From Pontiellaceae bacterium B12227 (GTDB lineage: Bacteria; Verrucomicrobiota; Kiritimatiellia; Kiritimatiellales; Pontiellaceae), in contig JAROAZ010000001.1 in NCBI GenBank assembly GCA_029432775.1, positions 620,001 to 684,000 of the forward strand: a stretch of 64,000 nucleotides of DNA, given 5' to 3'. The notes under the pieces are model-generated. The model was not told the origin of the DNA, did no database searches, and was given only the letters and a program-made list of their open reading frames with translations. A program made the translations under genes and the position numbers. Below are positions 4,457 through 51,401 of the stretch, piece by piece; position 1 is the first letter of the stretch, and every line of letters starts with the position of its first letter.

Positions 4457-6781
4457 TTAGTCCTCCCGAACTTTCAGCAAAACGGTTTCGCCTTTTTTCA
4501 GATTAATCTTCCAGCGCTTTTGTCCCTGCGGACCTTCCAAGGATTGGAAGTCCGGTTGCACCTTTCCGACCGCTTTAAATTCCGGCATGTCGGTCTCCAG
4601 GATGAGCGGCTCGCCTGCGAGGCTTTCAATCCGGATCCATTGGGTCATTCCCCGGGCGTATTCCGCGGAGACGAGGAAGGCCCCTTCGGTGCGCAGCTGG
4701 TGGAACACGGTCTCATCCGACCAGCGTTCCGGCATGGCCGGGAAGACGCGAATGACATCGCCCCAGCTCTGGAGCATCATATAGCCCATGGTATCGACCA
4801 CCGCCAGCGGGGTTTCAATCACGGGACCGCCGTCCTCGGCATACATGGAGTTGGGTTTGACGGCCCGCACGCCCGGAGCCATCCCGAGCCCTTGGGCGGT
4901 AACCATGCCGTCGAGCTGCTTCAGCGCCCGTTCACCGTCGCCCAACGTGGCAAACATGGCGGACGACCCGGTATAGGAATAGGCTGCCAGCACATCGGGC
5001 AGGCTCAACCAGCGCTCGACCGATTTGCGGAACAGGGCTTCGGCCTCGGCGCCCTGCTCGGGATGGATCGTGTGCAGCGGATAGAGCGCCATCAGATGCG
5101 AATAATGGCGGTGCGAAATATCAAATCCATGCGTTTCGCTGACCATCAACCCGTTTTCATTGACCGGGAAGGGGCGCAGCCGCTTCTTAGCATCCGCCCA
5201 CTTCGCAGCCATCGGATCGTCCAGGCCCAAGCGTTCGTTGAGATCGATTAGCGCCTGGAGCCCCCAATCGAAGAGCTGGAGCGAATAGTTGGTATCGGCC
5301 AGCAGGCCGGGGCGGTTCATCGCCCAACCGCGCTCCTCAGGTTCGGTCTTGAAATTATATTCAGGCGAAACCTGCGGCGGTAGATGAATGGTGCCGTCGG
5401 CATCGGTGGTCATGACATCGAAATAATAGTTAATGTTTTTCTTGAGCAGCGCAAACAGCTTACGACCGGTCGCCTCATCCATGCTGTATTTCCAGAAGCG
5501 CCAATAGTTGTGCAGCGCCCAGGTAAAGTTGCCCAGCTCATAGGTGTCGCCCCCCTCGCGGCGGATCATGTTATAGGTGGAGGTGCGCGGCCAGGTGATC
5601 GCATCCGGGTTCGTTGCGGAATTGAACGTGCCCTTCGCATCATAGAGGTCGATCATATGGGTGAAGTAGCTCCCCTGCTCCAGCTGGTTCGCGATAAAGC
5701 TCGGCAGATTGGAGAGCTGAATATTGAGGTTCCACCAGGTGCCCGGCCAGCCACACTGCGTGAACCACGGCCCCATGTTGTCGATCATGATCGGCAGCTC
5801 CGGGCGTGCCGCGCCGCCGAACTTATAGATCTGCAGCCAGTAAAACTGCTCCCAGAAATCGTCGCCCTCGATCTCCACGAAGGAGCGCTGCATATAATTG
5901 TGCCACCATTCACGGTGCCGTTTTTCCAAGGTCTGGCCCCCTTCGCTACGGGCCCGCTCGACCGAATCGACCGCCTCTTTAATGGCCAACTCAATATTCT
6001 CGGTTTGTGATTTTTCCGGTTCGTAGGCTTTGCCGACCGCCAGCAGGAAGGTGTTGCGGCCTTTTTTACCGCGAATGTTCACGAAGGCCGTTACGTGTGC
6101 CCCGTGTTTCGTAAGCGGTTGGATGACGAGCGTCAGGTCGCCCCGCTGCTCGCGGGTTGGCTTGGGCGGAAGCTCATCCGGCGACAGCGTGGCCGGATCG
6201 GTTTTTGTGGTGATGATGCGCGGGCTGATGGACCACTGTTCGGCCATGCCCAACGCCAGCCCTTTCTCGCCGCCGGTACTGCGCGACTCGACGACCACCA
6301 CATTGGATTCACGTTCAACAAACGAACGCCAGTCAATACGCCCCTGATCAGACTCAATCCGTCCACGGGCCTCGGCATTCCAGATATCGAGCCGCATGTC
6401 GGCCTTTTCCACCGCCCCCGCGGGGTTCAGCTGAATGCTGCCGATCGGCACGCGCGGGATCGACCAGTCGATGCTCGGAATATGGAACTCGGCGGCCACG
6501 TCGGTACGGCCCAGCTCCCATTGCAGCACCCATTCATCACCGGGCTTGCGGTAGATCGAGGCGCCGGTCAGGCCATTGGCAATAAATGCTGCATCGCCCC
6601 AGGTGTCACCAATCTCCCCCTCCCAGATCAGATCCTGCTCGGCCATAAACAACGGCCACTTGATGTCCGGGTTCTGCGGTTCCTTGAAGTCCGCTACGTT
6701 CTCCGGAATAAAATTACCGATTGCAAAAACAGAGCCGCACAACATGGATCCTACTAAAAACAAACTCACTCGACTTTTCAT
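4457..6781 (-). CDS. GH95-like glycosidase (alpha-L-fucosidase/galactosidase family)
   Basis: The protein has 774 residues with a signal peptide (MKSRVSLFLVGSMLCGSVFA). The N-terminal beta-sandwich carries ANGLTGASIYRKPGDEWVLQ. The alpha/alpha-barrel carries GWPGTWWNLNIQLS, corresponding to the GH95 WNxN pair of water-activating asparagines. It also has VSPEYN, positioned like the general-acid glutamate, and HRHYSHLMALYPLHTI, a GH95 hallmark. The usual FQxDGNFG motif appears as YAEDGGPVIE, keeping the Asp but diverging afterwards. GH95 enzymes are inverting and remove alpha-1,2-fucose or L-galactose. The divergence suggests a different subfamily or substrate, perhaps fucose-containing sulfated polysaccharide. 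It is a paralogue of the gene at 10,493-12,790. Confidence 0.85.
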   Translation of the reverse strand: MKSRVSLFLVGSMLCGSVFAIGNFIPENVADFKEPQNPDIKWPLFMAEQDLIWEGEIGDTWGDAAFIANGLTGASIYRKPGDEWVLQWELGRTDVAAEFHIPSIDWSIPRVPIGSIQLNPAGAVEKADMRLDIWNAEARGRIESDQGRIDWRSFVERESNVVVVESRSTGGEKGLALGMAEQWSISPRIITTKTDPATLSPDELPPKPTREQRGDLTLVIQPLTKHGAHVTAFVNIRGKKGRNTFLLAVGKAYEPEKSQTENIELAIKEAVDSVERARSEGGQTLEKRHREWWHNYMQRSFVEIEGDDFWEQFYWLQIYKFGGAARPELPIMIDNMGPWFTQCGWPGTWWNLNIQLSNLPSFIANQLEQGSYFTHMIDLYDAKGTFNSATNPDAITWPRTSTYNMIRREGGDTYELGNFTWALHNYWRFWKYSMDEATGRKLFALLKKNINYYFDVMTTDADGTIHLPPQVSPEYNFKTEPEERGWAMNRPGLLADTNYSLQLFDWGLQALIDLNERLGLDDPMAAKWADAKKRLRPFPVNENGLMVSETHGFDISHRHYSHLMALYPLHTIHPEQGAEAEALFRKSVERWLSLPDVLAAYSYTGSSAMFATLGDGERALKQLDGMVTAQGLGMAPGVRAVKPNSMYAEDGGPVIETPLAVVDTMGYMMLQSWGDVIRVFPAMPERWSDETVFHQLRTEGAFLVSAEYARGMTQWIRIESLAGEPLILETDMPEFKAVGKVQPDFQSLEGPQGQKRWKINLKKGETVLLKVRED

Positions 6782-6811
6782 TCTGATGCTCCGTTTCCAA
6801 GGACTGGAAAA

Positions 6812-12967: not shown

Positions 12968-15900
12968 CTACTGAATTTCCGCCTCGACCGTGAAGAAACC
13001 GTTGGATGGGGTCAGATCGACCTCAAGTGTATCCAGCGGCGGGGTCAATGCATTCGTCCAATTGCGGGCAACGGTCCAGTTGACCAGATCCTGACTTTTC
13101 CAAACCTTGTAAAGAACGCCGGTGGCGCTCGGCCACGCGATCTGGATTTTTCCAGAAGTTGGAAGCGTACCGTCGATGCCGAACCTGGATTCCGGATCGT
13201 CGGGATCGGTGCCTAATGCAATTTCCTGCGCATCGGTCAGTCCGTCGCCGTCGCTATCGGTATGATTCACACGGCCCGGAGAGCCGCCGGTTGTGGCCGA
13301 CGCGCTCCAGTTTGCTGGATCATTGCCATAGTGATGCAGCACAATGCGTTCGAGGGAGTGCCCCTGCCCATCCAAAATCAGCGGCCATGGGGCTTTCTTT
13401 TTATACGTTACCCGATCCGTCAGAATGAAAGGAACAAAGCCAGTCGGCTCAATGGTGCCCGGACGGTACAACTTTACGGACTCGCCCTGGTTATCCAGCA
13501 ATCCCGTCCATGGACCAAATACCTGAACCTTGGCGGGAAGTGCCGGGAGTGCCGCGCGAAGCGCGGTTTCGCTCATTCCTGAAAGCAGCACGATTCCATG
13601 AGGAGGAACCACCTGATTTTCGGGAAACTCATACTCAACCGCAGAACTTATTTTCCAGGTACTGGTTGGATTTGTTGCATCATAAAGCTTCACCGGCTGA
13701 TCGGTAATATTCACGAGCTCCACGTATTCCGGACCGTTCGTGGGATTCACCATGATTTCACTAATGACCATAGGACCGACCAGCGGATAGGTATTTTCCT
13801 CCGCCGGGGTCTGAGATCGGAGTGAGGGAAAATCCACTCCACCATCTGAACGCTCATAGCGGCCAAACGGCACCTCTTGCGCCGCTGCACCAAAGTCAAC
13901 CGAGTCGATATAGGAAAGCAGGTTGGTGCCGGAAATCACGGAGAGTGTTGCGTCGTCCCCGAGTTCGCTAAAGGCAAATCCAAGTTGCGTCTCGGTAAAG
14001 GTCAGATAACTATTTCCCGGGATCTGGGTTCCGCCGGGAATGGTGTATCGGGTCAGGTTCGTGGCGGAATCACTGAGATGCCATCCGCCGATATTCACCG
14101 CCGATGCGCCGGCATTGTAGAGCTCGATCCAATCTTCCCCGAGATCGCTATGGGAAAGAATCTCATTAATCACAACGGCGGCAGACATTCCATCGCGCCC
14201 CGGTGAACCATGATATTCCCGACTCGATCTCCAGGAGGATTCATTTCCAAGATAGTCATTTTTTTCAGGTTGGGTTCCGGGAGCCGCGAGCGGGGTGTTC
14301 AATTCAAGACTACTCCCCCCTCCATCCGCCCGGCTCGGCCAGAACCCTCCATCATCATATGAAAAATCCATGATCTGAACATTGTTCGAGGCAAATAACA
14401 TAAGCGACTCGCCACCGTTGTCCAGCTTTTCAGATGGAATCCACTGTCCCAGCACATGGATCTCCGGAAAGTACCAGGGTGAAACAGGATCCTGATACCG
14501 ACTTTCGAACCGGTCGGCATTGCGAACCACCACTCCATATCCATTAGGAGCAATGGATGTTCCGGGAGCAAAGGTGTGATGAATGCCGGCGGTAATGCTG
14601 ACACCCGAAAGATCTACCCGCTTATTCGACGGGTTATGAAACTCGATAAATTCATAATCATCCGACCCGTCCGGATTATAGTGAATCTCACTCATCACCA
14701 GATTATCTATTGCTGCAGCCTCGCGACCCTCAATCACAAAAGCGGCTTCGGTGAGTGCGGACCAGGTGGCGCCATCCCACGAACGGGCCTTAACGACCGT
14801 GTCCTCATCCAAAATAATATCTGAACCGCCCCCTCCCCCTCCACTACCAAACCGATGGGCGAACAACTCCATATCAAAGCTCATATCCGAACTGGTTCCG
14901 CTGTACTGATGAACCTCTACGGCAATCACATTATCGCCATTGACCAGCGGGGACGGATTAATATCAAAGGGATAATAGGTGGTTTCCCCCGCTCCGCCAG
15001 CAACCGAATCCGCCGGACTCAGATAAGAGACCGAGCCCGGAAGTATGCGTGTCCGGGCGGCTTCACTTCCATTTATGTAAACCACCGCACCATCATCGAC
15101 TCTGAGATTCAGTGTCAGACTGCTGATGGCAGCAGCATCCTTCACAGCGGGAATCGTGTGGCGAAAATACGTGGTAATATATTTGTTCTCGGAGTCGGGG
15201 CCATACCCGACCACCGTGGCCTCGCCGCCATCGCCATAACCCAGCTCACCCGGCCCGGATGCCCAGCCACTATCATTAAACCCGCTTTCCGACCACGCCG
15301 TTCCCTGATCGGAGCCGTCATCGAGATAGTTCCAGACGGCCCCTTTTTGAATCAGCGTTTCACCGGAAGCCGTGCTCAGCGTCAACGCAGCGGGAGAAAT
15401 GCCACCACCCGGCAGACGCGGGTCCGACCCATCGAGCGTGTAATAAACCGTTGCCGGCTCATTCATCGCCAACTGAAATCCTTCCGGAACCTCGCCGCCA
15501 TGCTGACTGAATACGGGGGCGGCCAGCGAAGGATATAGGCCGGCTTGTCGACAGCGTTCAACCACCTGATCCGTAATCTGAGGAATTTGACTCGAAATAT
15601 AGTTATTCTTTTTTATCGTCCACACATCCGGAGTCGACAGATTGTACCCACTCGGGCTCTCGCCGATCTTCATGTTTTTCCATCGTGCAATTTCCGCAAT
15701 GATCGAGGTCTCGAGCACATCGCCCCACTCATTCAGCCGAGCCGTGTTCCGCGCGGGCGTAAACGCCCCTCCATTAAAGAAATTTTTGTGAATACGATCC
15801 GCAATCAGCATTTTAAAGTCCGGATGATTCTCTTCGAGCAGTTGTGCATACGTGCCATCCACCCCATCCAAAACATCCTCATTATCATGCGAGACCGCAT

Positions 15901-18532: not shown

Positions 18533-21500
18533 TTACTGAATCTGAGCCTCAACTTTGAAGTAGCCGTTGGACGGGGTCAGATCGACCTCAAGCGTATCTA
18601 TCGGCGGGGTCAGAGCACTGCTCCAGCCGCGGGCGACGGACCAGCTGGTCAGATCCGGACTTTTCCAAACCTTGTACAGTACGCCGGTGGCGCTCGGCCA
18701 GCTGAGCTGGATTTTTCCATACATTGGAAGCGAACCGTCTATGCCGAATCCAGAATCCGGATCGTTGGGGTTGGTGCCTAATGCAATTTCCTGGGCATCG
18801 GTCAGTCCATCCCCATCGGTATCCGGATCACTCACCTGCGAAAGAGCGGCACGGATTTCCATCAACGTAAAGGCGTTTCCGGAAGCGGACGTCGCATCGT
18901 GCCCGATCACCACGAGTGTATCGAAGGCCGCGGCCGGAGAGAGCGTGGCCCGGGCGTAATAGGGAGCGCTGTCCGGAATAGCGAGACCAGTCACCTGCTC
19001 CACCAGAGTTCCCCCAAGGCCGCCGCTGTAGAGCTTGATATCGATGTTGTTATCCCGCTCGACCGCACCCGCAAGATTGCGGCCGTAGAGATCCACGACC
19101 AGATCTCCGGCCGTGCCCGCCAGCTGATAGACCAGCACCGCATCGATCCCCTCACCCAAGGAAGCATGGTATCCCGCACTGGAATCCCAAGTCTGTTCGG
19201 GCAGCGCGGATACCGGGGCATCCGAGTCGTAGGCAAATGGATCGTTCACCGTATTCGCCACCGAACCGCTGTAGCCGCTCGGCGAAGAATTGGCCACATC
19301 GGCCGTCAGCGTGAGTTCGGAAGCAACGGCATGGCGAAACAGCGAGGCATCGCCGGGATCTTCCGGATGGATCCAGTTGCTGCCGCCATCGGGATCATAT
19401 CCGAATCCCGGCGAGCTGTACGGCCCGCTTCCGCCACCGCCGTTACTGATGCGCAACTCAAATGTATGCCATCCAGGGCTTAGGTTCAGGTTGCCCGTCG
19501 AAGTGCGATCCCAATAGTTATCGCTGTTCAGCACCAGTACGCCATCGATATAAAGACGAACTTTGTCGTCGATGTCTTCGGTGAAGGAGATATTTCCGTC
19601 AGCATCGTAGACCTCCCCGCTATAAATCTCGGTCGTATTGGCCCCAATGCTATCCTCGGTTTCTCCCAGGTTCATAGTGACCCCCGTTTGCGGGTTTGGG
19701 TCCGTTATATTGATATCGCCAGAAACCGTTCCGTACCACAGCCCCGCAGCCGCCGTTGAGAAGGTTGCAGAGACTGAAAGATCCCCCGTCACCAACAAGT
19801 CGGTACGGGGATTATCCGTCCGCCCATCGCTCCATTCGGCAAAAACGTATCCACTGTCTGGAACAGCCTCAACCGCCGAACCGTTGCCGGCATAGCTCAC
19901 GGTCTGCGTGGTCATGCCGGTGAGCATACCGTTGGCTCCGGCGGTGTAAACCAGGGTCACCGGCTCATGCACAGACAGCGCACTGTACACCGCGACAACC
20001 TCGGCGGCATCGAGGGCTTTATCATAGATTTGGATTTCATCAATCGTCCCGCGGTAATTGCCGCCGCCGAACTTGAAGCTGGTAATATCATTCATGGAGA
20101 ACGTCTTTGAGTTCGCACTCACCAGTAAAACACCGTTCGTGTACATGGCCATCGAACCGGTGTTGGCATTCTTGGTCAAAACCCAGTGATTCCACTCGCC
20201 CGCCGCCGGAATCGGAGCGGATGATTGAACTCGGTTGAAACTGCTTCCAACATTTCCGGCATCCCAAATATACGACCCGCCCTCTCCGCCCCACGGCATA
20301 TGGGCGCTCAGCACCCGGTTTCCGCTACTATCGCTCGCCCTTAAGAAGGTGTTGTAGGGATGAAAGTCCGCATCGCCCCGCAGAAAGAAGCTAATGGTAA
20401 TTTCATCACTCAACGCCGAATAGACGGCTGAAGGAATCGTCAGAACCTCGTCCCTCAGCTCAAAACCCGTAGCGACCGGCGCATCGGCATCGTAGGCATC
20501 GCCGCTCAGCGCCGCATGATTCGAATTCCCGGAACTATCGATGGCTGTTGTGCCGGAGCCCTCAGAAAAACGATAGTGGGCCAGCAAGCCATCCGGAATG
20601 GTTCCGCCCGCCCCCGATGCGACCACCTGAAGCGTCTTCCGATCAATTTCACCGCGCGCATCCCGGATAAGCGCATGGATCGTATACGTTCCCGCCATCG
20701 TGTAGGTGTGGCTTGCGCTCGGCGCTAAGGCCGAGCCGCCGTCGGCAAAATCCCACGCAGTGGAAACCACTGTTCCGCTATCGTGTGTGCTGTTGAAATT
20801 CACGGAAAACGGAACGGTTCCCGACGAAACAGAGGCCGTGGCATTACCAAACGAAGCCTCGCACGTAATCTCCACCGTCTGCCGCGTGGTTAAAGGCAGT
20901 GCAGAGGTTTCCATCACACCGATTTGCAGGGTATACGTATTTCCCACAGGACTGGATGCCGCCACCGCGCTGTCCTTGATGCGAATAATTCCTGTATCCG
21001 AATCAATGCTAAACAGCGTGGTTCCGGTCTCGATAAAGAACCTCAGATCACTCGCGTCGGTTGCGTTCACCGTCATCACGGGGTCGCCTTTGATCAGGTT
21101 CTTCGTAAAGCGTCCCGTCTGCCCCGCCGGAACAAGCGGCGATGCATTCGTGTCATCCAATGAAATATGTACGGTGGTGGTGGCCATTTTCATGGGAACG
21201 CCATCATCTATCACGGTGATTTCCAACGGCGTTGATGCGCCCTCTTCATCATTCAGCGCATAATAGTTATTCACACGGATTGTTCCGTTGGTGGGATTGA
21301 TTTTAAAGCGGTTGCCGATATTGCCGCCGCTGATCCAATAATGCAGGGTTTGCCCGGCATCGACATCGGTGGCGGTCACGGAGCCAATGACCGTTCCCAA
21401 CGGCGTACTCTCCGACACGCTGAATGAAGACGAGGGAGAAACGGACTGAATAACGGGAGCATTCGATCCTCCAGTCGGCGTTAAACCGCGCGCCTGCCGC

Positions 21501-23014: not shown

Positions 23015-23098
23015 ATGTACTCCAAAATGGTTTAAGTAACTTGTGTTCCGGCCTGTCGCCTGAATCAATCTTGCGAAATTTTGCGGCGCCGCCGCTCT

Positions 23099-23170: not shown

Positions 23171-23235
23171 AAGGCGCTTCGCGCAGCTTTCCAACGGTCT
23201 GATAAGAATCAAGCACACGGTATGCCGTTGTGTGC

Positions 23236-27285: not shown

Positions 27286-30200
27286 ATGATCCCTATGAAA
27301 AAAGAATACCGAACCGTTGGCTTCCGAAGAGAGGGCTATCGTCTTATTGCATTGTTTCTTGCCGCGCTGGGTTTCGCCGGGACGGTCGGCGCATCCGATA
27401 TGTCCATGGAAATATCCGGAAACCAGGTGGATCTCTGGCTGGATCAGACTGAACAGGGAAAAACCTATCTTTTTCAAACGTCCACCAACTTGACCACCGA
27501 CTGGCAGGATCTCGGAGATCCCGTCATCGGCGACGGCCGTTTCCTGGCTGAACGGGATCAGATCGATAACCCGTCTGGTTTCTACCGGTTGCTCAGGACC
27601 GATAACCCGGTGCTCCAACTCGGTTTGCAGACCGATCTGCAGGATCATTCCGGCTCCGGCCACGTGGTTACTCCTGTCGGCGGGACGGTCGTTTTTGGCG
27701 AAGGGCGGACCGACCATTACAGTGCCTACATCTTCGATGGAGGCAACGCACTCGATGTTCCAACCCTTGGAAGTATGGAGGCTCTGACGCTGTCCACCTA
27801 TGTCTATCTCGATGATATCGTCGGAGCCACCACCATGCTGTATGACTCGGGGACGCAACCCGGTGGTATTCAGCTCTACCTGCGCGATAACCATGCAGGC
27901 ACTCACACCGGAGACGGCAAGGATCGGGATGTCGGGTTGGTATTCAAGGTACACGGCAATGCGGGCGGCAACGGCGTGACGGGTGAAAGCGTGGAAAGCA
28001 ACTACCGCCGCTTTGCGGAACATTCGCTCGACTTCATTACCACCGTCAATCACGAGCGGATGAACGGAAAGCTTAACCACCTCTGGCTGCATCTCGCGGT
28101 GAGCTACGATCCGGCACAAAACTCCGTTGATCTATACGTCAACGGTCGCCACGACTCCACGCACACTTTTTCAACCGCGCAACCGCCGGTTTTGAATGCC
28201 TCACGTATCGGTTCAGATTTGGCGAATGCCCAGCCGTTGATTGGAAGAGTCAGCGATTTTACGGTGTACGATACAGCCCTTTCTTCGGAGCAGATCCGGG
28301 CGCTCTCCGATTTCCGGCCCGAGTTGTGGGCGATTCGCGATATTGAGCAATGGACGACCGATCGGACGTATTACGTTGATGCGACCGCTGGAAACGATTC
28401 CTCCGACGGATCAGCCGGTTCTCCCCTGAAGACGCTTACGGAAGCGATTGATCGAATCAACGCGCTCTCCGCCGCCGAAGCTCCCGGCAGTCGTGTCGTG
28501 CTTAAGCCGGGCATGTATCGTGAAGGCGGTATTCATCTTAAGGAAAACGGCACCCGCTTTAAACCCATCATCATCGAGGCCGAAACGCCCGGAACCGTTA
28601 CCCTCAGCGGATCCGAGGTGTGGGATGATGACGCCTGGACGCAACAACCCGCCCAGCCCGGCCTATGGTACGGGGAGGTGCCCGGCAACATTAATACGAC
28701 CGATCCGAACCCGAGCACCGGAACGACCACCGACCTAAGCGAAACCGAGGACGGGATTGCGCCCGACACCACCGAAATCTACACGGGCGAAATCTACGAT
28801 GCCGACGGGAACATCTCCTTCACTGAAGATATTGACGATAAGGTGCGCCTCTACATCGACGGCACGCTGGTTCTCAATGACGATGATTGGAGCACCCGCA
28901 CCTCTACGGGCAATCTGAACCTGCAGCCCGGCTGGCATACCTTCGAACTGCGTATCAGCAACGGCAGCGGCGGCAGCGGCCCCTATTCCTTGCCGGGTAT
29001 CGGATACGATCCGGACGGTGGAACGGACTGGATCCATCCGGAAGACCCCGGCGACGGATCGCTGTTCCGCCGCTATACCCCGCTTTGGACGCACGACTGG
29101 CCCTACGCATTTGGTCGTAGTACAACCGCCCCGGTTGACCACGAAACGGAGGCCCGTTTTCGGCGGGAGCTTGTTGCGTTGGACGGCACGCTGCTGCGGC
29201 CCTACACCTCGCTTGCACGCCTGCAGGATTCCACGCTCGATCCGGATGTGTATCTGAGTGCCGACCACGCGTTCTACGTGGATGAACTCAATGATGTCAT
29301 CTATGTGCGGACGACCAAGGATCCCAATACGAGTCTGGTCGAAGTGGGCATCCATGAAAAACTGTTGCGCCTGAACGTGTGGTTCAACAACTGCGACTAT
29401 GTGGCCATCCGCGGTATCCGCTTTCAGCACACCGCCTCTTTCATCGGTGACGAAGCCCTTGATATTGTCGGCAGCGACCATGTGCTGGTCGAAGACTGCG
29501 AGATGGTGGATAACGGCTCCGTGGGGCTGGGATCGATCGATAAAGGAAATGGCACGGTGATCCGCCGGTGTACATTCAGCCGTAACGGACGGGAGGGCTT
29601 TTCGTTGACACGGGGCTACAGCCGCGCCTGGGTTCAGGATTGCGTGGTGGAGCAGAATCATTGGCGCAACGATTTAGGGAACTATTCGGGGCCGGACCTG
29701 GCCGGTATCGGGAAAATCATGTTTTCCAGTCGAATCTATCTGGAGCGCGTGCACGTGAACGATCATAGTTGCCCCGGAATATGGGCCGATGCGCAAAACT
29801 GGGATATCACCGTCGATAACTGCTACCTGGCCGGAAACGGAGTCGGCTTTTTTACCGAGATCAATACGTTGAACTCCGAAATCATCAACAGCGCCTGCTA
29901 TTACAATCGGCAGGGTGGTGCCGTTATCATGGATTCAGAGAGCGTCCGGGTTGAAAACAATATGTTCAAGCAGTCGGAGATCGCCTCATATCGGGGTATG
30001 CTCTCTTCAGCGCATGAGTTCCGGGACGAACAGGCCCATATTCCGGACATCTATGCCGCGAAAAATTCGGTGGTGCGCAACAACATCATTGCAACAGCCG
30101 GCACGTCGGGCAACCTGCATCATTTCGACAGTTTCAACGGGGTTTCAAGTGCCATGGTTTCATCGGGGAATACCTACTATGCACCCTATACCTCAAATCT

Positions 30201-30651
30201 GTTTAATATTGAAAACACGGCGGTTTCCTTCGCGGATTGGCATGCTGCTCTGAACGATACCACATCGCAACTGCTTCCGGTGAGCTCGCCACCTTTCGTT
30301 AACGATGGCTCTTTGACGGTTGGCTTTGAAAGCGATTGGGCGCTGGCGCCCGAGTTGCTCTCCGCTCTGAACGTTCCTATCATCTTGTCGAAGGCGGTAG
30401 ACGACACCATCACGTTGGATGTGACGGTGGAGAGTTTGACGGCCATCGAGGGCGACGACTTCCGCGTGATCGGAGCCGGAACGGTTACGTTCCAACCCCT
30501 GGAACGCTCGCGCGTTGTCCATGTCGTCATTCTCCGCGACGGTGTGGCTGAGGGCGAGGAACGTTTCCGCCTGACGCTCAGCAATCCAACCAACGCGTCG
30601 CTGGGAACCGAAACCGTTTTCACGGTTCGCATTCCCGCCAACGATGTCTGA
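27286..30651 (+). CDS. Secreted LamG / PA14 / right-handed beta-helix / Calx-beta protein, second copy
   Basis: The protein has 1121 residues from ATG 27286, which follows AGAGGTG by 5 bp; the in-frame start at 27235 has no ribosome-binding site. A signal sequence (LIALFLAALGFAGTVGA) precedes LamG at about 105-335. Beta-helix opening (YYVDATAGNDSSDGSAGSPL) is near 361, PA14 at 458-595, beta-helix coils at 700-970, and Calx-beta at 1008-1121 (VSLTAIEGDDF-like core reads VESLTAIEGDDFRVIG). It is a full-length paralogue of the 987-4439 product, with the PA14 cassette inserted at the same point after LSGSEVWDDDAW. Likely an extracellular polysaccharide-active protein; no catalytic residues can be named with confidence. 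Confidence 0.83.
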   Translation: MIPMKKEYRTVGFRREGYRLIALFLAALGFAGTVGASDMSMEISGNQVDLWLDQTEQGKTYLFQTSTNLTTDWQDLGDPVIGDGRFLAERDQIDNPSGFYRLLRTDNPVLQLGLQTDLQDHSGSGHVVTPVGGTVVFGEGRTDHYSAYIFDGGNALDVPTLGSMEALTLSTYVYLDDIVGATTMLYDSGTQPGGIQLYLRDNHAGTHTGDGKDRDVGLVFKVHGNAGGNGVTGESVESNYRRFAEHSLDFITTVNHERMNGKLNHLWLHLAVSYDPAQNSVDLYVNGRHDSTHTFSTAQPPVLNASRIGSDLANAQPLIGRVSDFTVYDTALSSEQIRALSDFRPELWAIRDIEQWTTDRTYYVDATAGNDSSDGSAGSPLKTLTEAIDRINALSAAEAPGSRVVLKPGMYREGGIHLKENGTRFKPIIIEAETPGTVTLSGSEVWDDDAWTQQPAQPGLWYGEVPGNINTTDPNPSTGTTTDLSETEDGIAPDTTEIYTGEIYDADGNISFTEDIDDKVRLYIDGTLVLNDDDWSTRTSTGNLNLQPGWHTFELRISNGSGGSGPYSLPGIGYDPDGGTDWIHPEDPGDGSLFRRYTPLWTHDWPYAFGRSTTAPVDHETEARFRRELVALDGTLLRPYTSLARLQDSTLDPDVYLSADHAFYVDELNDVIYVRTTKDPNTSLVEVGIHEKLLRLNVWFNNCDYVAIRGIRFQHTASFIGDEALDIVGSDHVLVEDCEMVDNGSVGLGSIDKGNGTVIRRCTFSRNGREGFSLTRGYSRAWVQDCVVEQNHWRNDLGNYSGPDLAGIGKIMFSSRIYLERVHVNDHSCPGIWADAQNWDITVDNCYLAGNGVGFFTEINTLNSEIINSACYYNRQGGAVIMDSESVRVENNMFKQSEIASYRGMLSSAHEFRDEQAHIPDIYAAKNSVVRNNIIATAGTSGNLHHFDSFNGVSSAMVSSGNTYYAPYTSNLFNIENTAVSFADWHAALNDTTSQLLPVSSPPFVNDGSLTVGFESDWALAPELLSALNVPIILSKAVDDTITLDVTVESLTAIEGDDFRVIGAGTVTFQPLERSRVVHVVILRDGVAEGEERFRLTLSNPTNASLGTETVFTVRIPANDV

Positions 30652-30669: not shown

Positions 30670-30945
30670 CTACTGGATTTTTGCTTCTACCCGGAAGTAG
30701 CCGTTTGACGGGGTAAGATCGATTTCGAGTGCATCCACCGGCGGGGTCAGCGCGCTGGCCCAATCACGGGCGATGGACCAGTTGGCCAACTCCGGACTTT
30801 TCCAAACCTTGTAAAGCACGCCGGTCGCACTTGGCCAGGTGATCTGGAATATTCCAGACATTGGAAGCGTCAAGCTGTCGATGCCAAACCCGGAGCCCGG
30901 ATCATTGGGTCCGTGCCCAAAGCTGTTTCCTGCGCAAAGAACCCT
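30670..30945 (-). pseudogene. Orphan frameshifted copy of the shared C-terminal module
   Basis: An intact 67-codon stretch (GIFQITWPSATGVLYKVWKS to YFRVEAKIQ) matches the last 67 residues of both giant proteins at 12,968 and 18,533. Upstream on the minus strand the match continues through the AQE, ALGTDP and DPGSGFGID segments, but in a different frame; one base appears to be missing between them near 30900. Homology stops near 30940, and no secreted protein precedes it. It lies just beyond the stop of the plus-strand beta-helix gene. I read it as the debris of a deleted or recombined giant protein gene. Confidence 0.65.
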
Positions 30946-34465: not shown

Positions 34466-35563
34466 ATGAAAAAAGCAATTATAGCACTCGAAGACGGAAC
34501 TTGTTTTGAAGGTCGCGCATTTGCCGGAGCCGGCGAATTTTACGGCGAATTGGTCTTCAACACCTCCATGACCGGTTATCAGGAGATCCTCACGGACCCC
34601 TCGTACCATGGACAAATTGTCACCATGACCTATCCGCTGATCGGTAACTACGGCATCAACGACGAGGATGTGGAATCCCGGGGAATCTTCGCCCAGGGGC
34701 TGGTCGTGAGCGAATGCTCCCGTATCCACAGCAACTGGCGGGCAACCAAATCGTTGGCTGAATATCTGGAGGAAAACGGCAAAATCGGCATCGATGATGT
34801 TGATACGCGCGCCATAACGCTCCACATCCGCGATAAAGGCGCCATGAAATGCATCGTTTCCACTGAAGACTTCGATGAAGCAAGTCTCGTGGCCAAAGCG
34901 AAAGCATCCGAAGGACTCGTTGGCAGAGACCTCGCTTCTGAAGTTTCGATCGACGAGAAATACGTTTGGCCGGAAGGCGGCAAATCCGATGCCTCCCATA
35001 AGGTTGCGGTCATCGACTGCGGCATTAAACTCAACCAGCTGCGTATTCTCGAAGATCTAGGTTGTGAATGCACCGTCTACCCGAACAACTCGAATGCCGA
35101 CGAAATCCTTGCCACGAGCCCGGACGGTATTTTTGTCTCCAACGGCCCGGGCGACCCCGCCGGCGCGCCGGAAACCACCAAACTGGTCGGCAAGCTGATC
35201 GAATCCAAAATTCCAATGTTTGGAATCTGCTTCGGCCATCAGATGCTGGGCCGTGCGCTGGGTGCCGACACCTTTAAGCTGAAATTCGGTCATCGCGGCG
35301 GTAACCAGCCGATTCAGGATCTGCGCACCACCAAAGTGGAAATTGCCTCGCACAACCATGGCTTCTGCATCGATGCAGACACTGTAAATGCAGATATTGC
35401 CGAAGTAACCCACCTCAACCTTAATGACAATACGGTCGCCGGTCTGAAGCATAAGCAGCAGCCGCTATTCTGCGTCCAATACCATCCGGAAGCTGCACCC
35501 GGCCCACACGATCCGTTCTACCTCTTTGAGGAGTTCATCGACTTAATGAAGGAAAATAAATAA
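34466..35563 (+). CDS. carA: Carbamoyl-phosphate synthase small (glutaminase) subunit
   Basis: The protein has 365 residues, the normal CarA length. The N-terminal domain carries [20 protein letters not shown], and the class I amidotransferase domain carries the nucleophile motif [16 protein letters not shown] and the His/Glu motif [13 protein letters not shown]. It hydrolyses glutamine and channels ammonia to CarB for pyrimidine and arginine synthesis. The stop overlaps the guaA start by one base (TAATG), so the two are translationally coupled. An exact TTCCA-N5-TGGAA word overlaps the Cys motif. Confidence 0.97.
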
Positions 35564-37110
35564 TGAATCATCCCGAATGGATCGCCATCCTTGATTACGG
35601 CTCCCAGGTCACGCAGCTGATTGCCCGTCGACTGCGCGAGCAGAAAGTGTATTGCGAAATTATACGCTTCGACACCTCTGCTGAAGAGCTGATGAAACGC
35701 GCTCCGAAAGGAATCATCCTTTCCGGCGGCCCGTGCAGTGTTCCGGATGAAGACTCGCCGAAATGCGATCCCGCTCTCTTTGACCTCGGGCTTCCAATCC
35801 TTGGAATCTGCTATGGCATGCAGCTGACGTCACAGACCCTGGGCGGATCCGTGCATCGCGGCAACAAGGCCGAATACGGTAAAGCCATGATGACCATCAC
35901 CAAGGACTCGCCTCTTTTCAAAGGACTCGCCCCCGACCTGCAGGTCTGGATGAGCCATGGCGACAAGGTGGAGTCCATGCCGGAAGGCTTTGAATCCGTT
36001 GCAGAGTCCGATAACTGTCCGCTCGCCGCCATTCAGAATCTCGACCGCAACATCTACGGAGTGCAGTTCCATCCGGAAGTGGTACACACCCCGCAGGGCA
36101 AAGAAATGCTCTGGAACTTTGCCTTCAGCATTTGCAAATGCTCGGGCGACTGGGAAATGTCCAAATTTATTGAAAGCACCGTGAAGCAGATTCAGGAACA
36201 GGTCGGCAGCGACCACGTTCTGCTCGGCCTTTCCGGCGGGGTTGACTCCTCGGTAGTGGCCGCCCTGCTCCACAAAGCCATCGGCGACCAGCTGCACTGT
36301 GTGTATGTCGACAACGGTCTAATGCGTTACAAAGAGACCGAAGAGATTGAAGATCTGTTCGGTCGCGCCTTTGGTATCGACCTGATCGTTGCCCACTCCG
36401 GCGACCTCTTCCTCGGAGAGCTGGCAGGCATTTCCGATCCCGAAGAAAAACGCAAAATCATCGGTGGCACGTTCATCGATGTGTTCTCAGAAAAAGCGCG
36501 CGGACTGAAGGATAAGGTTAAATTTCTCGCTCAGGGAACACTCTACCCCGACGTCATTGAATCGGTCTCCCCGATTGGCGGCCCATCAGCCACCATCAAG
36601 AGTCACCACAACGTGGGCGGCCTTCCGGAAGATCTGCAGTTCGACCTCGTTGAACCGCTGCGCGAACTCTTTAAAGATGAAGTGCGTGAAGTCGGTCGCG
36701 AACTCGGCCTACCGAGCTACGTGGTGGACCGCCAGCCCTTCCCGGGCCCGGGTCTTGCCGTACGAATTATCGGCGACATCACCCCCGAGCGCATCGAAGT
36801 CCTCCAGCAGGCCGATCTGCGTGTTCGTGAAGAGATCATGAAAATGCCGAACCACCTCGATGTATGGCAATACTTCGCCGTACTGCTGCCGATTCAGACG
36901 GTCGGCGTGATGGGCGACGACCGCACCTACGAAAGTGTGGTAGCCGTTCGTGCAGTTGAAAGCCGCGATGGAATGACGGCCGACTGGTACAAACTGCCTT
37001 ACGAAGTAATGGACTCGATCTCCAACCGGATCATTAACGAAGTACCCGGCGTGAACCGCGTCTGCTACGACATCAGCTCCAAGCCGCCGTCCACGATTGA
37101 ATGGGAGTAA
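35563..37110 (+). CDS. guaA: GMP synthase (glutamine-hydrolysing)
   Basis: The protein has 515 residues. The amidotransferase domain has [20 protein letters not shown] with the catalytic Cys, and [15 protein letters not shown] with His/Glu. The ATP-pyrophosphatase domain has the P-loop [17 protein letters not shown], followed by the dimerisation domain ending in [11 protein letters not shown]. It converts XMP to GMP using glutamine and ATP. Its placement between carA and carB is unusual and joins purine and pyrimidine steps in one transcript. Its stop is followed within 4 bp by the nucleotidyltransferase gene. Confidence 0.97.
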
Positions 37111-37785: not shown

Positions 37786-40700
37786 ATGCCAAAACGCGAA
37801 GATATTCACCACATCCTAATCATTGGTTCCGGCCCGATTGTGATCGGCCAGGCCTGCGAGTTCGACTATTCCGGCACCCAGGCGTGTAAAGCGCTGCGGG
37901 AAGAGGGATACACCGTCTCGCTGATCAACTCCAACCCGGCCACCATCATGACCGACCCGGCTACGGCCGACCGGACGTATATCGAGCCGATCACGCCGGA
38001 AGCAGTGGAAAAGATTATTATCAAAGAAAAGCCGGATGCCATCCTGCCGACACTCGGAGGTCAGACTGCGCTTAACACAGCGATGAAACTGGTCGAACAA
38101 GGCATTCTGGAAAAATACGGCGTTGAGATGATCGGTGCTGAATACGACGCCATCATGCGCGGCGAAGAACGCGACCTGTTTAAAAAGGCGATGGCAGAAA
38201 TCGGCGTGGAAACGCTTCGCAGTTATGAATGCCACGATCTGGAAGAAGCCAGGCGCATTGCTGACGAAGAGCTGGATTTTCCGATTATCGTTCGCCCGTC
38301 CTTCACCCTCGGCGGAACCGGCGGTGGCATTGCGGACAACATGGAAGAGCTGATGGAAATTGCAGAAGGCGGCCTTAAAGCCTCTCTTTCAACGGAAGTG
38401 CTGCTCGAAGAATCCGTATTCGGCTGGAAAGAATTTGAGATGGAAGTGATGCGCGACCGCAAAGACAACTGCGTCATCATCTGCGCCATTGAAAACATGG
38501 ACCCGATGGGCATTCATACCGGGGACTCTATCACCGTGGCTCCGGCCCAGACACTGACTGACCGCGAATATCAGATTATGCGCGATGCCTCTTTGGCCGT
38601 CCTTCGTGTGGTCGGTGTTGAAACGGGCGGATCCAATGTTCAGTTCTGCATCCACCCGAAGACCGGACGGCTGGCGGTTATTGAAATGAACCCGCGTGTA
38701 TCGCGCTCCTCCGCCCTCGCCTCCAAAGCCACCGGATTCCCGATTGCCAAACTGGCCGCCAAACTGGCGGCGGGATACTCGCTGGACGAACTTCCGAATG
38801 ACATTACCAAAGAAACGCCGGCTTGCTTTGAGCCGTCGATCGACTATGTGGTCACCAAGCTCCCGCGTTTCACCTTCGAAAAATTCCCGTCTGCCAGCCC
38901 CAAACTGGGCGTCAGTATGAAGTCGGTCGGTGAAACCATGGCGATTGGACGCAACTTTAAAGAGTCGCTCCAGAAAGCTTTCCGATCCCTGGAAATCGGA
39001 GTCGATGGACTTGACCTTAAGGCGGAGGCTTTAATCGATGCATCCCGGCTTGATCATTATCTTTTAACGACGTGCACCGAAGGAACCATCGCCATCAAGG
39101 TTGCACTGAAGAAGGGCTACAGCCCTGAGAAGATTCATGAAATGACCCATATGGATCCATGGTTTATCGATCAGATTCTGCAGATTGTTGAAATCGAACA
39201 GCAGTTGATTGATGCAGCAGAACTCGATTATGACCTGCTGAAATATGCCAAGAAAAACGGATTCTCCGATGAACAGATCGGCGTGCTGCGGGGCTGCACC
39301 GGAAACGATATCCGGGCCCTCCGTAAAGAGCTCGACCTGATCCCGGTTTACAGTCTGGTTGATACCTGCGCCGGAGAGTTTGCGGCCTCCACCCCTTATT
39401 TCTATTCGACCTACGGCGGGCAGCTGGATGAAACCCGCCAGACCGAAAAACAGAGCGTCATCGTTCTCGGCTCCGGACCGAACCGGATCGGCCAGGGAAT
39501 CGAATTCGACTATTCCTGCGTGCACACGGTGAAAGCACTGCGCGAAATGGGATATGAGGCCATCATGGTAAATTCGAACCCGGAAACGGTTTCGACCGAC
39601 TATGATACGTCGGACAAACTCTATTTCGAGCCGCTCACCTTCGAAGATGTAATGAACATCTATGAAACTGAAAAGCCGTTGGGCATGATTGTTCAGATGG
39701 GTGGCCAGACTCCGCTCAATCTCGCCGACCGCCTGCTGGAAGCCGGAGTTCCAATCCTTGGAACATCGCCAAAATCCATTGCCGCCGCCGAAGACCGCGA
39801 GCAGTTCCGTCAACTGCTCGAAAAAGTCGAACTTCAATCCCCGCAGTCCGCCACCGCGCTGACCATGGACGAAGCCAAAGCCGCTGCCGAAACCATCGGC
39901 CTGCCGGTCATGATCCGCCCTTCGTTTGTTCTTGGCGGACGCGCCATGATGGTGGCCTATGAAGAAGAAGAGTTGGAACCGTTTGTACAGGCTGCTTTCA
40001 ATGCCAGCCCGGATCATCCGGTATTGATCGACCGTTTCCTGGAGCATGCTATCGAAGTGGACGTTGACCTGGTCTGCGATGGAACTGACGTTTATGTCGG
40101 CGGTGTGATGGAACACGTTGAAGAAGCCGGCATTCACTCCGGCGACTCCGCCTGCTCGATTCCGCCATACACCCTCTCCGACGATATGGTTGCCCGAATC
40201 AAAGTGGCCTGTACGGCCATGGCCATGGAGATTGGTGTGATGGGGCTGATGAACGCTCAGATTGCGGTTAAAGACGACGAGTTCTACATTATCGAAGTCA
40301 ACCCGCGCGCCTCCCGTACAGTTCCTTATGTTTCCAAAGCAACCAATGTCCCGATGGCCAACCTGGCCACGCAGATCGCCATGGGCAAAACGCTGAAAGA
40401 GCTCGGCATGGTCGGGTTCGAGCCGAAGGTTGAATGGTTTGCGGTGAAAGAAGCCGTATTCCCGTTCAACCGGTTTGCCGGCGTTGACCCGATCCTCGGC
40501 CCGGAAATGAAATCTACCGGCGAAGTGATGGGCATCGATAAAAACTTCGAGCTCGCCTTCTGGAAAGCCGAAGTAGCGGCTGGTCAGGTGCTGCCGACCG
40601 AAGGTGCCGTTTTCCTCAGTGCTAAAGATCGGGACAAAGACTGGATCGTGGCAGTCGGGAAAAAATTCGTGGAAGCCGGCTTCAGCCTGATTGCGACGGA

Positions 40701-41170: not shown

Positions 41171-42136
41171 TTAGGCCAATAAGGATTTCGCTGCCTTGAA
41201 AACCTGATCCGGAGTAATCGAAGTAAGTGCTTCAACAGCCAGCTCTGAGCTCCGTGCAATATCGCGCGATTTCACCGAGCTGTTCTGGACCACCTTAAAT
41301 CGGCGGGCCAGCGGGCCGGTTTTATCCGGATCCGTAATTCCATAGATGCCAACCACCGGAACATCAACGGCGCCGGCCAAATGCATGCCGCCGCTATCGT
41401 TTGCAACGGCCAGTCGGCCATTTTTTAATAGTGCCGCCCATTCCTGCAGACTGGTCTTTCCTGCCACGCTTGTTACACGGTCACCCAGCATGGCAGTCAG
41501 ATCTTTACAGGCCGGCGCATCGCCGCCACCGCCGGCAAAAACAAGCTGAAGATCAGTCTGATCCAACAGCATGCGCGCCAGTTTCTCAAAATGATCCAGT
41601 GGCCACATTTTTGAAGCACCGCGGGCGGCACCGGGCATCAGCACCGCATAGTTTCCAAGGTTTGGAAACTTGGCTTCCAGGGTTTGGAATGCGGCATCGG
41701 GAATCTGAAGCGCGGGCAGTTCTTTCACAAGGTCGGCCGATCCGGGGGCCATAATCGGATAGTATTCGTTCGATTGGTGCCCACCGGCCAAAGGAATCAC
41801 TTTCGTGAGCATCAGAAAGCGATGATCCCCTCTCAGTCCAATGCGATGATGTATGCCGGCCATCGCCGGAATCAGAGCCGAGCGGAAGGAATTCGGCAGA
41901 ATGTATGCGGTATCGAACCCATACTGTTTAACTTCGGAAATGGTGGTACCCATTTTGTCCAGCGTCAGAATCTGATCCGGAACCGCATGCATTTCCCAAA
42001 AGGGTTTTAAATAGGGTTTCACGAGCATGGCAATATGCGCATCCGGATGTTCCGCCCGGCAGGCCTGAAGAGCCGGCATGCTCATGATGGCATCCCCAAT
42101 CCAGTTGAGTCCGACAATTAGAATACGCTTCGGCAT
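41171..42136 (-). CDS. waaF: ADP-heptose:LPS heptosyltransferase II
   Basis: The protein has 321 residues and belongs to glycosyltransferase family 9. It starts [20 protein letters not shown], the WaaF signature. The C-terminal half has VLMPGAARGASKMWPLDHFE and VANDSGGMHLAGAVDVPVVGIYG, the conserved ADP-heptose site. It adds the second heptose to the LPS inner core at the inner face of the inner membrane. It overlaps lpxK by one base, so the two are co-translated. Two palindromic TTCCA-N5-TGGAA words lie 7 bp apart inside the gene. Confidence 0.92.
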   Translation of the reverse strand: MPKRILIVGLNWIGDAIMSMPALQACRAEHPDAHIAMLVKPYLKPFWEMHAVPDQILTLDKMGTTISEVKQYGFDTAYILPNSFRSALIPAMAGIHHRIGLRGDHRFLMLTKVIPLAGGHQSNEYYPIMAPGSADLVKELPALQIPDAAFQTLEAKFPNLGNYAVLMPGAARGASKMWPLDHFEKLARMLLDQTDLQLVFAGGGGDAPACKDLTAMLGDRVTSVAGKTSLQEWAALLKNGRLAVANDSGGMHLAGAVDVPVVGIYGITDPDKTGPLARRFKVVQNSSVKSRDIARSSELAVEALTSITPDQVFKAAKSLLA

Positions 42137-44723: not shown

Positions 44724-44802
44724 TAAATATGGCCTTTTTTAATTTATTCCCCGATTCTCTGCTGTTTACAAAAAGATAGCTTCCACTGATTGGAACTGAT
44801 TT

Positions 44803-45762: not shown

Positions 45763-46509
<747 letters not shown>

Positions 46510-47211: not shown

Positions 47212-48177
47212 ATGACTACTTCTGCTCCAACTCTGATCCTGGCGCCGATGCGCGGCATCACGACGATGCACTATCGTCAGGCGTTCGTGCGCCACTTCCA
47301 GGGGCTGGATGTTGAAATGGCTCCGTTCATTCCCACCGTCAACGCCGAACGGATCAATCCGAAGCTGCTCAAAGACGTTTTGCCGGAAAACAACTCCGGC
47401 CTTCCGCTTATCCCCCAGATCATCGGCAACAACGCCGATGATTTTGTGCAGATGAACATTGCCCTGCATGACCTAGGCTATAACGAGGTCAATTGGAATA
47501 TGGGCTGTCCGCATAAACCGATTCGCAGAAAAAGAAGAGGTTCCGGTTTGCTGCCCTATCCGGATACGGTTGATACCATTCTCGATCAGGTCTGCGAACG
47601 GAGCCCGGTGAAAATTTCGGTCAAAGTTCGGTTGGGCGTGGCGGATAAGTCGGAACTGATGAAGCTGATCCCCGTGCTGAACAAATACCCGCTCTCCGAA
47701 GTCATTGTTCATCCTCGCACTGCTGAGCAGATGTATGACGGCACCGTCGATCTCGATGCGTTCGAAGAGGCCTTCCAGGCCTTGGAACAAACCGTCTGCT
47801 ACAACGGCGACATCAATGACCTCGCATTTTTCCAATCCGTGGAAAAGCGGTTTCCAACCATTGGAAGATTTATGCTGGGTCGCGGTCTGCTCGCCAACCC
47901 GTTCCTTTGCGAAGAGATCAAAACACCGCACGTGCGCAAGTGTGACAGTTACATCCCGCGCATCCGGGACTTCCACGAAGATCTGGTTTCCCGCTATGAA
48001 GCAGTCCTGCACGGTGATCATCCCGTTCTTGGGAAAATGAAAGAGTTCTGGACCTATCAGACTCTTCACCTCTCCAATGGCCGGAAGATGTTTAAAAAGC
48101 TGAAAAAAGCGCAGCGCCTTGGAAACTATAAAGACATTGTTACCGAATTTCTTGCCGAGGCCGACTGGACTCCATAA
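47212..48177 (+). CDS. dus: tRNA-dihydrouridine synthase family protein
   Basis: The protein has about 321 residues. It has the FMN-barrel motifs LAPMRGITTMHYRQAF, NWNMGCPHKPIRRKRRGSGL with the catalytic Cys, SVKVRLGV, and HPRTAEQMYDG. Dus enzymes reduce uridine to dihydrouridine in the tRNA D or variable loop with NADPH. I choose ATG 47212; GTG 47206 is in frame but lies within the repeat arm, and neither has a good ribosome-binding site. Three TTCCA-N5-TGGAA words lie within about 95 bp of this gene. Confidence 0.9.
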   Translation: MTTSAPTLILAPMRGITTMHYRQAFVRHFQGLDVEMAPFIPTVNAERINPKLLKDVLPENNSGLPLIPQIIGNNADDFVQMNIALHDLGYNEVNWNMGCPHKPIRRKRRGSGLLPYPDTVDTILDQVCERSPVKISVKVRLGVADKSELMKLIPVLNKYPLSEVIVHPRTAEQMYDGTVDLDAFEEAFQALEQTVCYNGDINDLAFFQSVEKRFPTIGRFMLGRGLLANPFLCEEIKTPHVRKCDSYIPRIRDFHEDLVSRYEAVLHGDHPVLGKMKEFWTYQTLHLSNGRKMFKKLKKAQRLGNYKDIVTEFLAEADWTP

Positions 48178-48186
48178 CATGGTTCC

Positions 48187-49056: not shown

Positions 49057-49526
49057 TGCGTCCGGACTGGTTAATTATTGATGGCTATAATCTGCTGCAT
49101 GTGGTCGACGAGCTAAAAGCTATGCTGCGCTCTGACCAGGGACTCGCCCGGCACCGGCTGGTTCGTATGGTTGAGGGGACCGGGCATCGCATGGCCCTTC
49201 AAACCACCATCGTTTTTGACGGCAAAGAATCCGGACAGGATGCCGCGCTGACTTCGAAACATTTGGAAATCTATTTCTCGCCCGGCAAACATACCGCCGA
49301 CACCATCATCGAACGACTGGTAAGACGTTTTCCAACCCCTGGAAAAATCCTCGTTGTCACCTCCGACCGCGCGGAGGCCAATGCCGTACTTAGCGACGGG
49401 GCCCAGGTGATGTCTTCACAGGAATTCATGGATCAGTGTAAACTGGACGCTCGGAAAATCATCCCGAAAAGAACGCGGCCCGGCGAGGAGCCCAAACTGG
49501 GCGATCTATTCCCCGACGGGCTCTAG
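49056..49526 (+). CDS. NYN-domain (YacP/Rae1-like) putative endoribonuclease
   Basis: The protein has 156 residues. The PIN-like core starts WLIIDGYNLLHVVDELKAML with the conserved Asp, followed by TIVFDGKESGQ, the ADTIIERLV helix and LVVTSDRAEANAVLSDGA, matching YacP-family NYN proteins. Rae1 of Bacillus cleaves mRNA at the ribosome; whether this one does is inference. It is translationally coupled to the patatin gene. Confidence 0.85.
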   Translation: MRPDWLIIDGYNLLHVVDELKAMLRSDQGLARHRLVRMVEGTGHRMALQTTIVFDGKESGQDAALTSKHLEIYFSPGKHTADTIIERLVRRFPTPGKILVVTSDRAEANAVLSDGAQVMSSQEFMDQCKLDARKIIPKRTRPGEEPKLGDLFPDGL

Positions 49527-49530
49527 AATT

Positions 49531-50352: not shown

Positions 50353-50468
50353 GCCCACCTCCTTAATTTTAGAGCTGACTGAAGGTCTCACAGAATTCTA
50401 TATTTATAAATAGGAATATTATGCAGTATTAATATTTAGATAAATATTCAATAGGGGCTTCAACACAA

Positions 50469-51401
50469 TTAAGCGGGTACAATCTCAACTTTGTTCTTTA
50501 ACCGTTCCACATCTTCCGGCTTAAGATAGCCCGAGATCAGGTTTAATGCATTGGACGCCCCGCAGGCCATCGCCAGCTTCAACGATTCCTCAATATTTAA
50601 TCCCTGATTCAGCGCGATCGCCATTCCTGCCGTCACGGCATCGCCACTGCCGATCGGATTAACAGCTTCGATTTTCAGGGGAGAAATTTCAAGCGCGTGG
50701 GAACTATCCACAAAAAAGGCACTGCGCGGGCCTCGGGTAATCAGAACCGACTGCGCACCCAGCTCAATCAAGCGGCGGCATCCCTTTAAGAGGTCATCAA
50801 CCCCTGTCGCCGCCCTCAGCTCATGATCATTAATCTTCACCAAAGCCGGTCGATGCTCCAGCGAAAGCATCAGCGGTTCCACCTGCGTATCAAGAATCAC
50901 CCGACCGCCGGCAGACTGCACCATTTGGCAAATCTGAGCATAGCCATCCACCGGAGCCCCCGCCGGCAGCTTTCCAGAGATTGGAACAACGGCCCCCGAA
51001 AGTTCCAAAGATTGGAACAAGTCCTGCATCCGTTTCCAATCATTGGAAGAAATCGGCGGCATCTCCTCCACCAGCTCCGTCGTATCCGGGTTTCCCGCCT
51101 CAACCAGGGTCTGGCAAATCCGCGTCTCACCCTCCACCTCCAAATGCCGGAAGCCAATCCCTTCTTCCTTCAGCATCTCCTCCAAAAGTCTTCCGTTGGC
51201 TCCCCCGACAAACTCAACCAGTTCTGACGGATTTCCTAGTTGATGAACCATCCGGGCCGTGTTCGCCCCCTTCCCTCCAATACAAATATTTACTCTTGAG
51301 GCACGGTTAACGGCCCCTTTTTCAACTTTTTCAAATTCAACAATGCGCTGTACACATGGTGTAAATCCGCAACAGATAATGGGTTTCGTAGATGTCTTCA
51401 T
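50469..51401 (-). CDS. PfkB-family sugar-phosphate kinase (1-phosphofructokinase-like)
   Basis: The protein has 310 residues. The ribokinase-fold signatures are GKGANTARMVHQLG near the N-terminus and NPIGSGDAVTAGMAIAL with the catalytic Asp. The opening ICCGFTPCVQRIVEFEKVEK is like the FruK/LacC group (usual TPNPAxD pattern altered to TPCVQR). It likely phosphorylates a sugar phosphate such as fructose-1-phosphate or tagatose-6-phosphate, but the altered opening makes the substrate uncertain. Three TTCCA-N5-TGGAA words fall within 77 bp of this gene, each in a different reading frame. Confidence 0.82.
   Translation of the reverse strand: MKTSTKPIICCGFTPCVQRIVEFEKVEKGAVNRASRVNICIGGKGANTARMVHQLGNPSELVEFVGGANGRLLEEMLKEEGIGFRHLEVEGETRICQTLVEAGNPDTTELVEEMPPISSNDWKRMQDLFQSLELSGAVVPISGKLPAGAPVDGYAQICQMVQSAGGRVILDTQVEPLMLSLEHRPALVKINDHELRAATGVDDLLKGCRRLIELGAQSVLITRGPRSAFFVDSSHALEISPLKIEAVNPIGSGDAVTAGMAIALNQGLNIEESLKLAMACGASNALNLISGYLKPEDVERLKNKVEIVPA

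Follow-up and report, generated by a model that had tools for sequence, protein, structure and literature searches.

The Window and Its Palindromic Sites

The window, i.e., the whole stretch of DNA that was analyzed (64,000 nt; G000:C111:620001-684000), comes from a 6.29-Mb draft genome, G000 (206 contigs, 94.9% complete), and contains 22 exact copies of a 15-bp palindromic word, TTCCA-N5-TGGAA, between positions 4535 and 51048. All the copies counted in the first-pass annotation are present, while dinucleotide shuffles give 0.14 copies on average and 2 at most. CarA of this genome shares 91% identity with the protein of Pontiella sulfatireligans F21 and 92% with that of Pontiellaceae bacterium B1224; judging by this identity, the genome belongs to Pontiella or a very close relative (Kiritimatiellales, Kiritimatiellia).

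The first copy, TTCCAAGGATTGGAA (4535..4549), is located within a GH95-like gene (4457-6781, minus strand), and the second, TTCCAAGGACTGGAA (6795..6809), in intergenic DNA. Two more occupy the C-terminal parts of large secreted-type proteins: TTCCAGAAGTTGGAA (13150..13164) in 12968-18493 (minus strand) and TTCCATACATTGGAA (18715..18729) in 18533-23218 (minus strand). The gene 27235-30651 (plus strand) harbors TTCCAACCCTTGGAA (27758..27772) and TTCCAACCCCTGGAA (30490..30504), and TTCCAGACATTGGAA (30852..30866) lies at the edge of a gene fragment or in intergenic DNA. In carA, TTCCAATGTTTGGAA (35211..35225) encodes the peptide IPMFGI, and codon choice preserves the word in several relatives. TTCCAATCCTTGGAA occurs twice: in a GMP-synthase-like gene (35563-37110, plus strand) at 35792..35806, where it is conserved in relatives, and in carB at 39749..39763, where it is present in seven of seven motif-bearing orthologues and absent from the motif-free ones. 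Further downstream, waaF contains a phased pair of sites 22 bp apart (41653 and 41675; 41653..41689), TTCCACTGATTGGAA (44781..44795) is intergenic, and an AIRC/LarB-like gene contains a pair 60 bp apart (45964 and 46024; 45964..46038). Three sites are found in dus (47773, 47830, and 47852, the last two 22 bp apart; 47773..47866), one more TTCCAACCCCTGGAA in an NYN/YacP-domain gene (49330..49344), and a phased triplet with 31-bp steps (50972, 51003, and 51034; 50972..51048) in a PfkB-type 1-phosphofructokinase-like gene. The clusters first noticed in waaF, the AIRC/LarB-like gene, dus, and the PfkB kinase gene are thus all in place.

Homologous flanks are common to 13150, 18715, and 30852 (two in the C-terminal regions of the secreted-type proteins and one in the nearby fragment), and 35211 and 35792 occupy one and the same amidotransferase motif. 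These five of the 22 copies are not fully independent.

The gene of tRNA-Tyr (51491..51575, plus strand) marks the beginning of a site-free stretch. The region 51576..64000, which encodes an ArdC antirestriction protein, two caspase-like proteins, and an Hsp70/GrpE pair, has no copy of the word, in agreement with the initial observation: about 13 kb are without sites, against roughly 4.7 copies expected at the mean density of the genome. The lack of the word in these ~13 kb downstream of tRNA-Tyr would be consistent with a recent acquisition, and 51576-64000 is probably a mobile island.

Abundance, Consensus and Exactness

Genome totals were obtained by pattern search, and finer statistics from sampled stretches. 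The whole G000 genome contains 2297 copies of TTCCA-N5-TGGAA against 6 copies of the reversed control word, AAGGT-N5-ACCTT. In the sampled 464 kb of the window's contig, 138 copies were found against 1.5 in order-4 Markov simulations. When spacer lengths from 0 to 15 were scanned in the window, a spacer of 5 gave 22 matches, a spacer of 4 gave one, and the rest gave none; with enrichment at 5 alone, variable spacer length is ruled out. The composition of the spacer, which had been described as variable, turned out to be constrained as well: over the 138 copies it follows R-N-S-N-Y, with C or G as the central base in 134. As T or C is preferred just outside the word, the full consensus of these copies reads YTTCCA-RNSNY-TGGAAR. 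The arrays of family f9 (L166, G061) have TTGAG or TTGAA in the center and break the R-N-S-N-Y rule of the other families.

Exact copies in the 464 kb (138) outnumber all one-mismatch variants combined (126), whereas the control word has 1 exact and 15 near matches; since exact copies prevail, the site is kept close to perfect. Among the near-misses, 48 of 126 are altered at the first or last base, which is an excess.

The Word in Coding DNA

About 81% of the copies in the same 464 kb (112 of 138) are within genes, where they use the three reading frames 39, 42, and 31 times; the genes were predicted by a simple self-written caller, so that counts concerning 5' ends are approximate. Shuffling of synonymous codons leaves 10.7 ± 2.9 genic copies (maximum 18), ten times fewer than observed. 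Dinucleotide shuffles, Markov simulation, codon shuffling, and the reversed control all fall far short of the real counts, which rules out chance and composition; the initial observation is confirmed and was, if anything, understated.

The carB site (39749) illustrates how the word is maintained. The peptide which it encodes, VPILGT, is nearly constant across orthologues. In seven motif-bearing orthologues, all 35 of 35 third codon positions within the site (five per orthologue) are kept, against 51-60% elsewhere in the gene (the orthologues come from related species, and the 35 positions are not 35 independent events), and in four motif-free orthologues only 1 of 18 is kept. Orthologues mostly gain or lose the word by substitution without gaps; in one relative, a 3-base gap is found beside the site. 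The use of three frames, the excess over codon shuffling, and the conservation of synonymous positions rule out a protein motif and indicate a signal at the level of DNA, as was initially proposed from the frames. The word is apparently under selection.

Helical Phasing and Placement

In at least ten families, neighboring sites are separated by 21-22, 31-32, 53, or 62-64 bp; distances of 84 and 93-94 bp are found as well. For 128 nearest-neighbor pairs from ten families (the window's family f1 without G000, the order's second family f2, f8, f14, f17, and five more) the coherence for a period of 10.5 bp is R=0.90 (with p near 1e-45, a value in which pairs from the same genome are not fully independent), with the best period at 10.4. 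Since the separations are whole helical turns, neighboring sites face the same side of the helix. The sequence of the linkers between them is for the most part not conserved. Almost all f14 sites are accompanied by another one at 32-33 bp. This phased geometry is new here and was absent from the first-pass annotation.

The placement of the clusters was analyzed in f8 and f14, again with genes from the self-written caller. Within genes the clusters reach just 0.05 and 0.15 of the expected number, and in intergenic DNA they are enriched 5-12 fold, in convergent, divergent, and tandem gaps alike; because of this equal enrichment they are, as a class, neither promoters nor terminators. The clusters follow one another every 3-5 kb or so, no two being less than 1 kb apart, and their distribution is more regular than that of intergenic positions chosen at random (P=0.008, <0.0002, 0.0002). 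In f1 and f2 the sites are scattered through genes.

Arrays are present in viral DNA, too. A scan of viral contigs for close pairs gave 29 stretches, which are phased as well (R=0.62 for 46 pairs); a scan for single motifs yielded mostly chance matches. Some of the viral contigs with phased arrays have terminase, portal, or head genes close by. Of the phased arrays at L219:3034-3164, L220:2786-2946, and L242:10589-10634, those of two contigs precede the gene of the terminase large subunit by 0.6-0.8 kb, and the remaining one immediately follows that of a small subunit. The arrays are thus not confined to the housekeeping DNA of hosts, which weakens a model in which the word is purely a label of self DNA.

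Distribution among Genomes

Within Kiritimatiellia, the word occurs from 0 to 3209 times per genome. Motif-rich genomes belong to families f1, f2, f8, f9, f14, f17, f18, f22, f27, f36 and, in part, f6, and many families (f3, f11, f19, f26, and f31) are at chance level. In the window's genus alone the number ranges from 2297 down to about 5, so that the word has undergone repeated loss or reduction. Outside Kiritimatiellia, each of 257 genomes of the phylum has at most 30 copies; it is in this class alone that the word is enriched. Assembly artefacts do not account for this, since 359-951 copies are present in genomes that are close to complete (G024 and G028, one contig each; G021 and G005, a few contigs). 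No dialect of the word was seen in motif-poor G004 and G018 or in samples of f3, f11, f26, and f31 (the scan left out the f13 and f19 samples, which contain runs of N).

Two other words deserve mention. Motif-poor G004, of the window's genus, is rich at loci L176-L185 in CCGGCGCCGG-like words, mostly within genes. A 2.4-Mb genome of Verrucomicrobiota, G329, has 55 copies of AAGGT-N5-ACCTT and no TTCCA-N5-TGGAA, and may possess another iterated palindrome.

Possible Function of the Word

We suppose that the word is a site for a putative dimeric protein that binds cooperatively along one face of the DNA and organizes the chromosome, and we would give this reading an even chance of being correct. 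The analysis shows the site itself with its copy number, exactness, spread, phasing, placement, and conservation; binding by a protein, cooperativity, and the organizing role are inferred from these patterns as follows. A palindrome with a fixed distance between half-sites suggests a dimer; recognition by a dimeric protein had been predicted at first pass, and synonymous conservation and helical phasing strengthen that prediction. Whole-turn spacing together with mostly unconserved linkers suggests dimers that touch one another. A role in promoters or terminators is disfavored by the equal enrichment of convergent and divergent gaps. YTTCCA-RNSNY-TGGAAR would then be the recognition site of a sequence-specific dimeric DNA-binding protein that has been in Kiritimatiellia since early. 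Dimers at neighboring sites, two or three turns apart on one helix face, would pack together into short nucleoprotein stacks, and in most families sampled the stacks would be placed at gene boundaries every few kb. In the window's order, single sites are also scattered across genes, about one per 1-4 kb, and would be held there by selection on codon choice. Such a protein might organize the chromosome by compaction, by domain boundaries, or by anchoring, rather than act as a promoter switch. Of the three functions offered initially, chromosome organization fits best, mainly owing to the phased arrays.

A more far-reaching version, which we put forward tentatively and consider more doubtful than probable, is a site-specific chromatin system. 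Its putative protein would stack along one face of the DNA at evenly spaced gene-boundary arrays and divide the chromosome into units of ~3-5 kb; the code would be overwritten on coding sequence in Pontiella and its relatives and borrowed by their phages.

Several observations count against a chromosome-organizing protein. Close pairs in G000 are weakly phased (R=0.30), distances of 22, 29, 31, and 33 bp being common; there is also a common class of pairs 17 bp apart (with a two-base linker, often AT), which is outside the helical phase. Most sites in this genome are single, and they are distributed along the chromosome no more regularly than expected by chance. Finally, none of the candidate proteins LysR, AsnC, and NrdR tracks the word, and no cognate was found among them. 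LysR is absent from 13 of the 37 motif-rich genomes, including G044 with its 1808 copies. AsnC is present in the rich and in most of the poor genomes, that of motif-poor G004 being nearly identical to that of G000, and 13 of 20 AsnC neighborhoods (about 4 kb) are without an exact site. NrdR is single-copy in nearly all of 74 genomes, rich and poor alike.

The main rival, in our opinion unlikely, is a DNA-uptake sequence: a transformation receptor would prefer site-bearing DNA, and copies would build up via uptake and recombination. The genome-wide occurrence of the word, its exactness, its presence in all frames, the large differences among related species, and its absence from the window's island are all in line with this. 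Uptake sequences of Haemophilus are likewise abundant and relatively evenly spread (PMC7811141). The competence channel ComEC is encoded by each of the 37 motif-rich genomes tested, and no match to it was obtained in motif-poor G016, G080, and G175; however, the other 28 of the 31 motif-poor genomes possess it too, among them low-copy relatives from the same genus. ComEC thus permits the uptake model without lending it specific support and is not diagnostic. In addition, we know of no counterpart in uptake-sequence systems to phased arrays of two to seven copies, and the arrays on phage contigs are in a place where an uptake label lacks evident use. Several families (e.g., G101, G059, and G113) have a second, long ComEC-domain protein (about 930-1200 aa) beside the usual one.

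The word could also be the operator of a global transcription regulator, the genic copies being a spill-over, but we regard this as improbable. Oligomeric regulators typically have phased tandem sites for dimers, and among the gene boundaries occupied in f8 and f14 there are 5' ends of genes. On the other hand, enrichment is equally strong in convergent and divergent intergenic regions, four fifths of the sampled G000 copies are genic, and LysR and AsnC are distributed as described above.

Still less probable is a methylation-linked palindrome similar to the cyanobacterial highly iterated palindrome HIP1, which an orphan methyltransferase together with strand-directed repair would produce or maintain. 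Known enzymes such as PflMI recognize CCA-N5-TGG, the inner part of the word. The word is a highly iterated palindrome of coding DNA, and the prevalence of exact copies over near-misses and the excess of changes at the first and last bases are as reported for HIP1 (PMC4390886). The model of Elhai predicts a methyltransferase and does not predict helical phasing (PMC4390886). However, none of four DNA-methyltransferase families is universal in motif-rich genomes: PF01555 is missing from 10 of 37, and PF02384, PF02086, and PF00145 are each missing from some in the subset examined. Two motif-rich genomes, G063 (95% complete) and G053 (88% complete), lack matches to all four, which disfavors the restriction-modification or epigenetic function that was also among the initial proposals.

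A dispersed repeat element (repetitive extragenic palindrome, REP; miniature inverted-repeat transposable element, MITE; or terminator hairpin) rather than a binding site is very improbable, for although arrays occur at contig ends and in intergenic DNA and one or two intergenic G000 copies extend to long hairpins, the arms extend beyond the word by an average of just 1.0 bp between genes and 0.5 bp within them, there is little conservation in most linkers and flanks, divergent intergenic regions carry the word too, and it is mostly gained and lost by substitution without gaps (apart from the one nearby 3-base gap).

If a protein does read the word, each genome would offer it hundreds to thousands of sites, and its effect would be strong enough to fix synonymous codons across species. 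Bacteria would then have a chromosome code of fixed geometry, intermediate between a nucleoid protein and an insulator. The old question of why some bacteria have thousands of copies of a single short word becomes testable here, as motif-rich isolates (Pontiella) can be compared with motif-poor sister species and the geometry itself makes a prediction.

Comparison with Known Systems

Our literature search found no earlier description of TTCCA-N5-TGGAA and no related report. The sites of matS, Noc, and SlmA are palindromic, chromosome-wide, often within genes, and number tens per genome. The word resembles them in palindromy and spread; it differs in its far higher copy number, and no ori-ter gradient was evident in 20 samples of the complete genome G028. 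LysR-type tetramers (OxyR) and Lrp/AsnC oligomers bind sites of about 15 bp that recur on the same DNA face every 22 bp or so or every 31-32 bp. The word shares this geometry, although LysR itself is absent from many motif-rich genomes. NrdR recognizes two palindromic boxes 15-16 bp apart, bound best with whole turns between their centers, and sets a precedent for helical-phase-dependent binding of two dimers (PMC12051234). Its boxes, unlike the word, have a different sequence and occur at few promoters.

Like the DNA-uptake and uptake signal sequences (DUS/USS) of Neisseriaceae and Pasteurellaceae, the word has hundreds to thousands of exact copies, both genic and intergenic, in species-dependent numbers and in the presence of ComEC. 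In contrast to them, it is palindromic, stands in tandem at two or three helical turns and forms arrays in phages, and ComEC does not track its copy number. Like HIP1 and the alternate HIPs of cyanobacteria (GCGATCGC), it is an iterated, largely coding palindrome with near-misses biased to the outer bases and with losses in some lineages; unlike them, it is a gapped site of 15-17 bp with helically phased gene-boundary arrays and with no conserved methyltransferase among the four families. The word thus resembles both HIP1 and the uptake sequences in abundance and differs from both in its phased arrays, and it may possibly represent a categorically new system.

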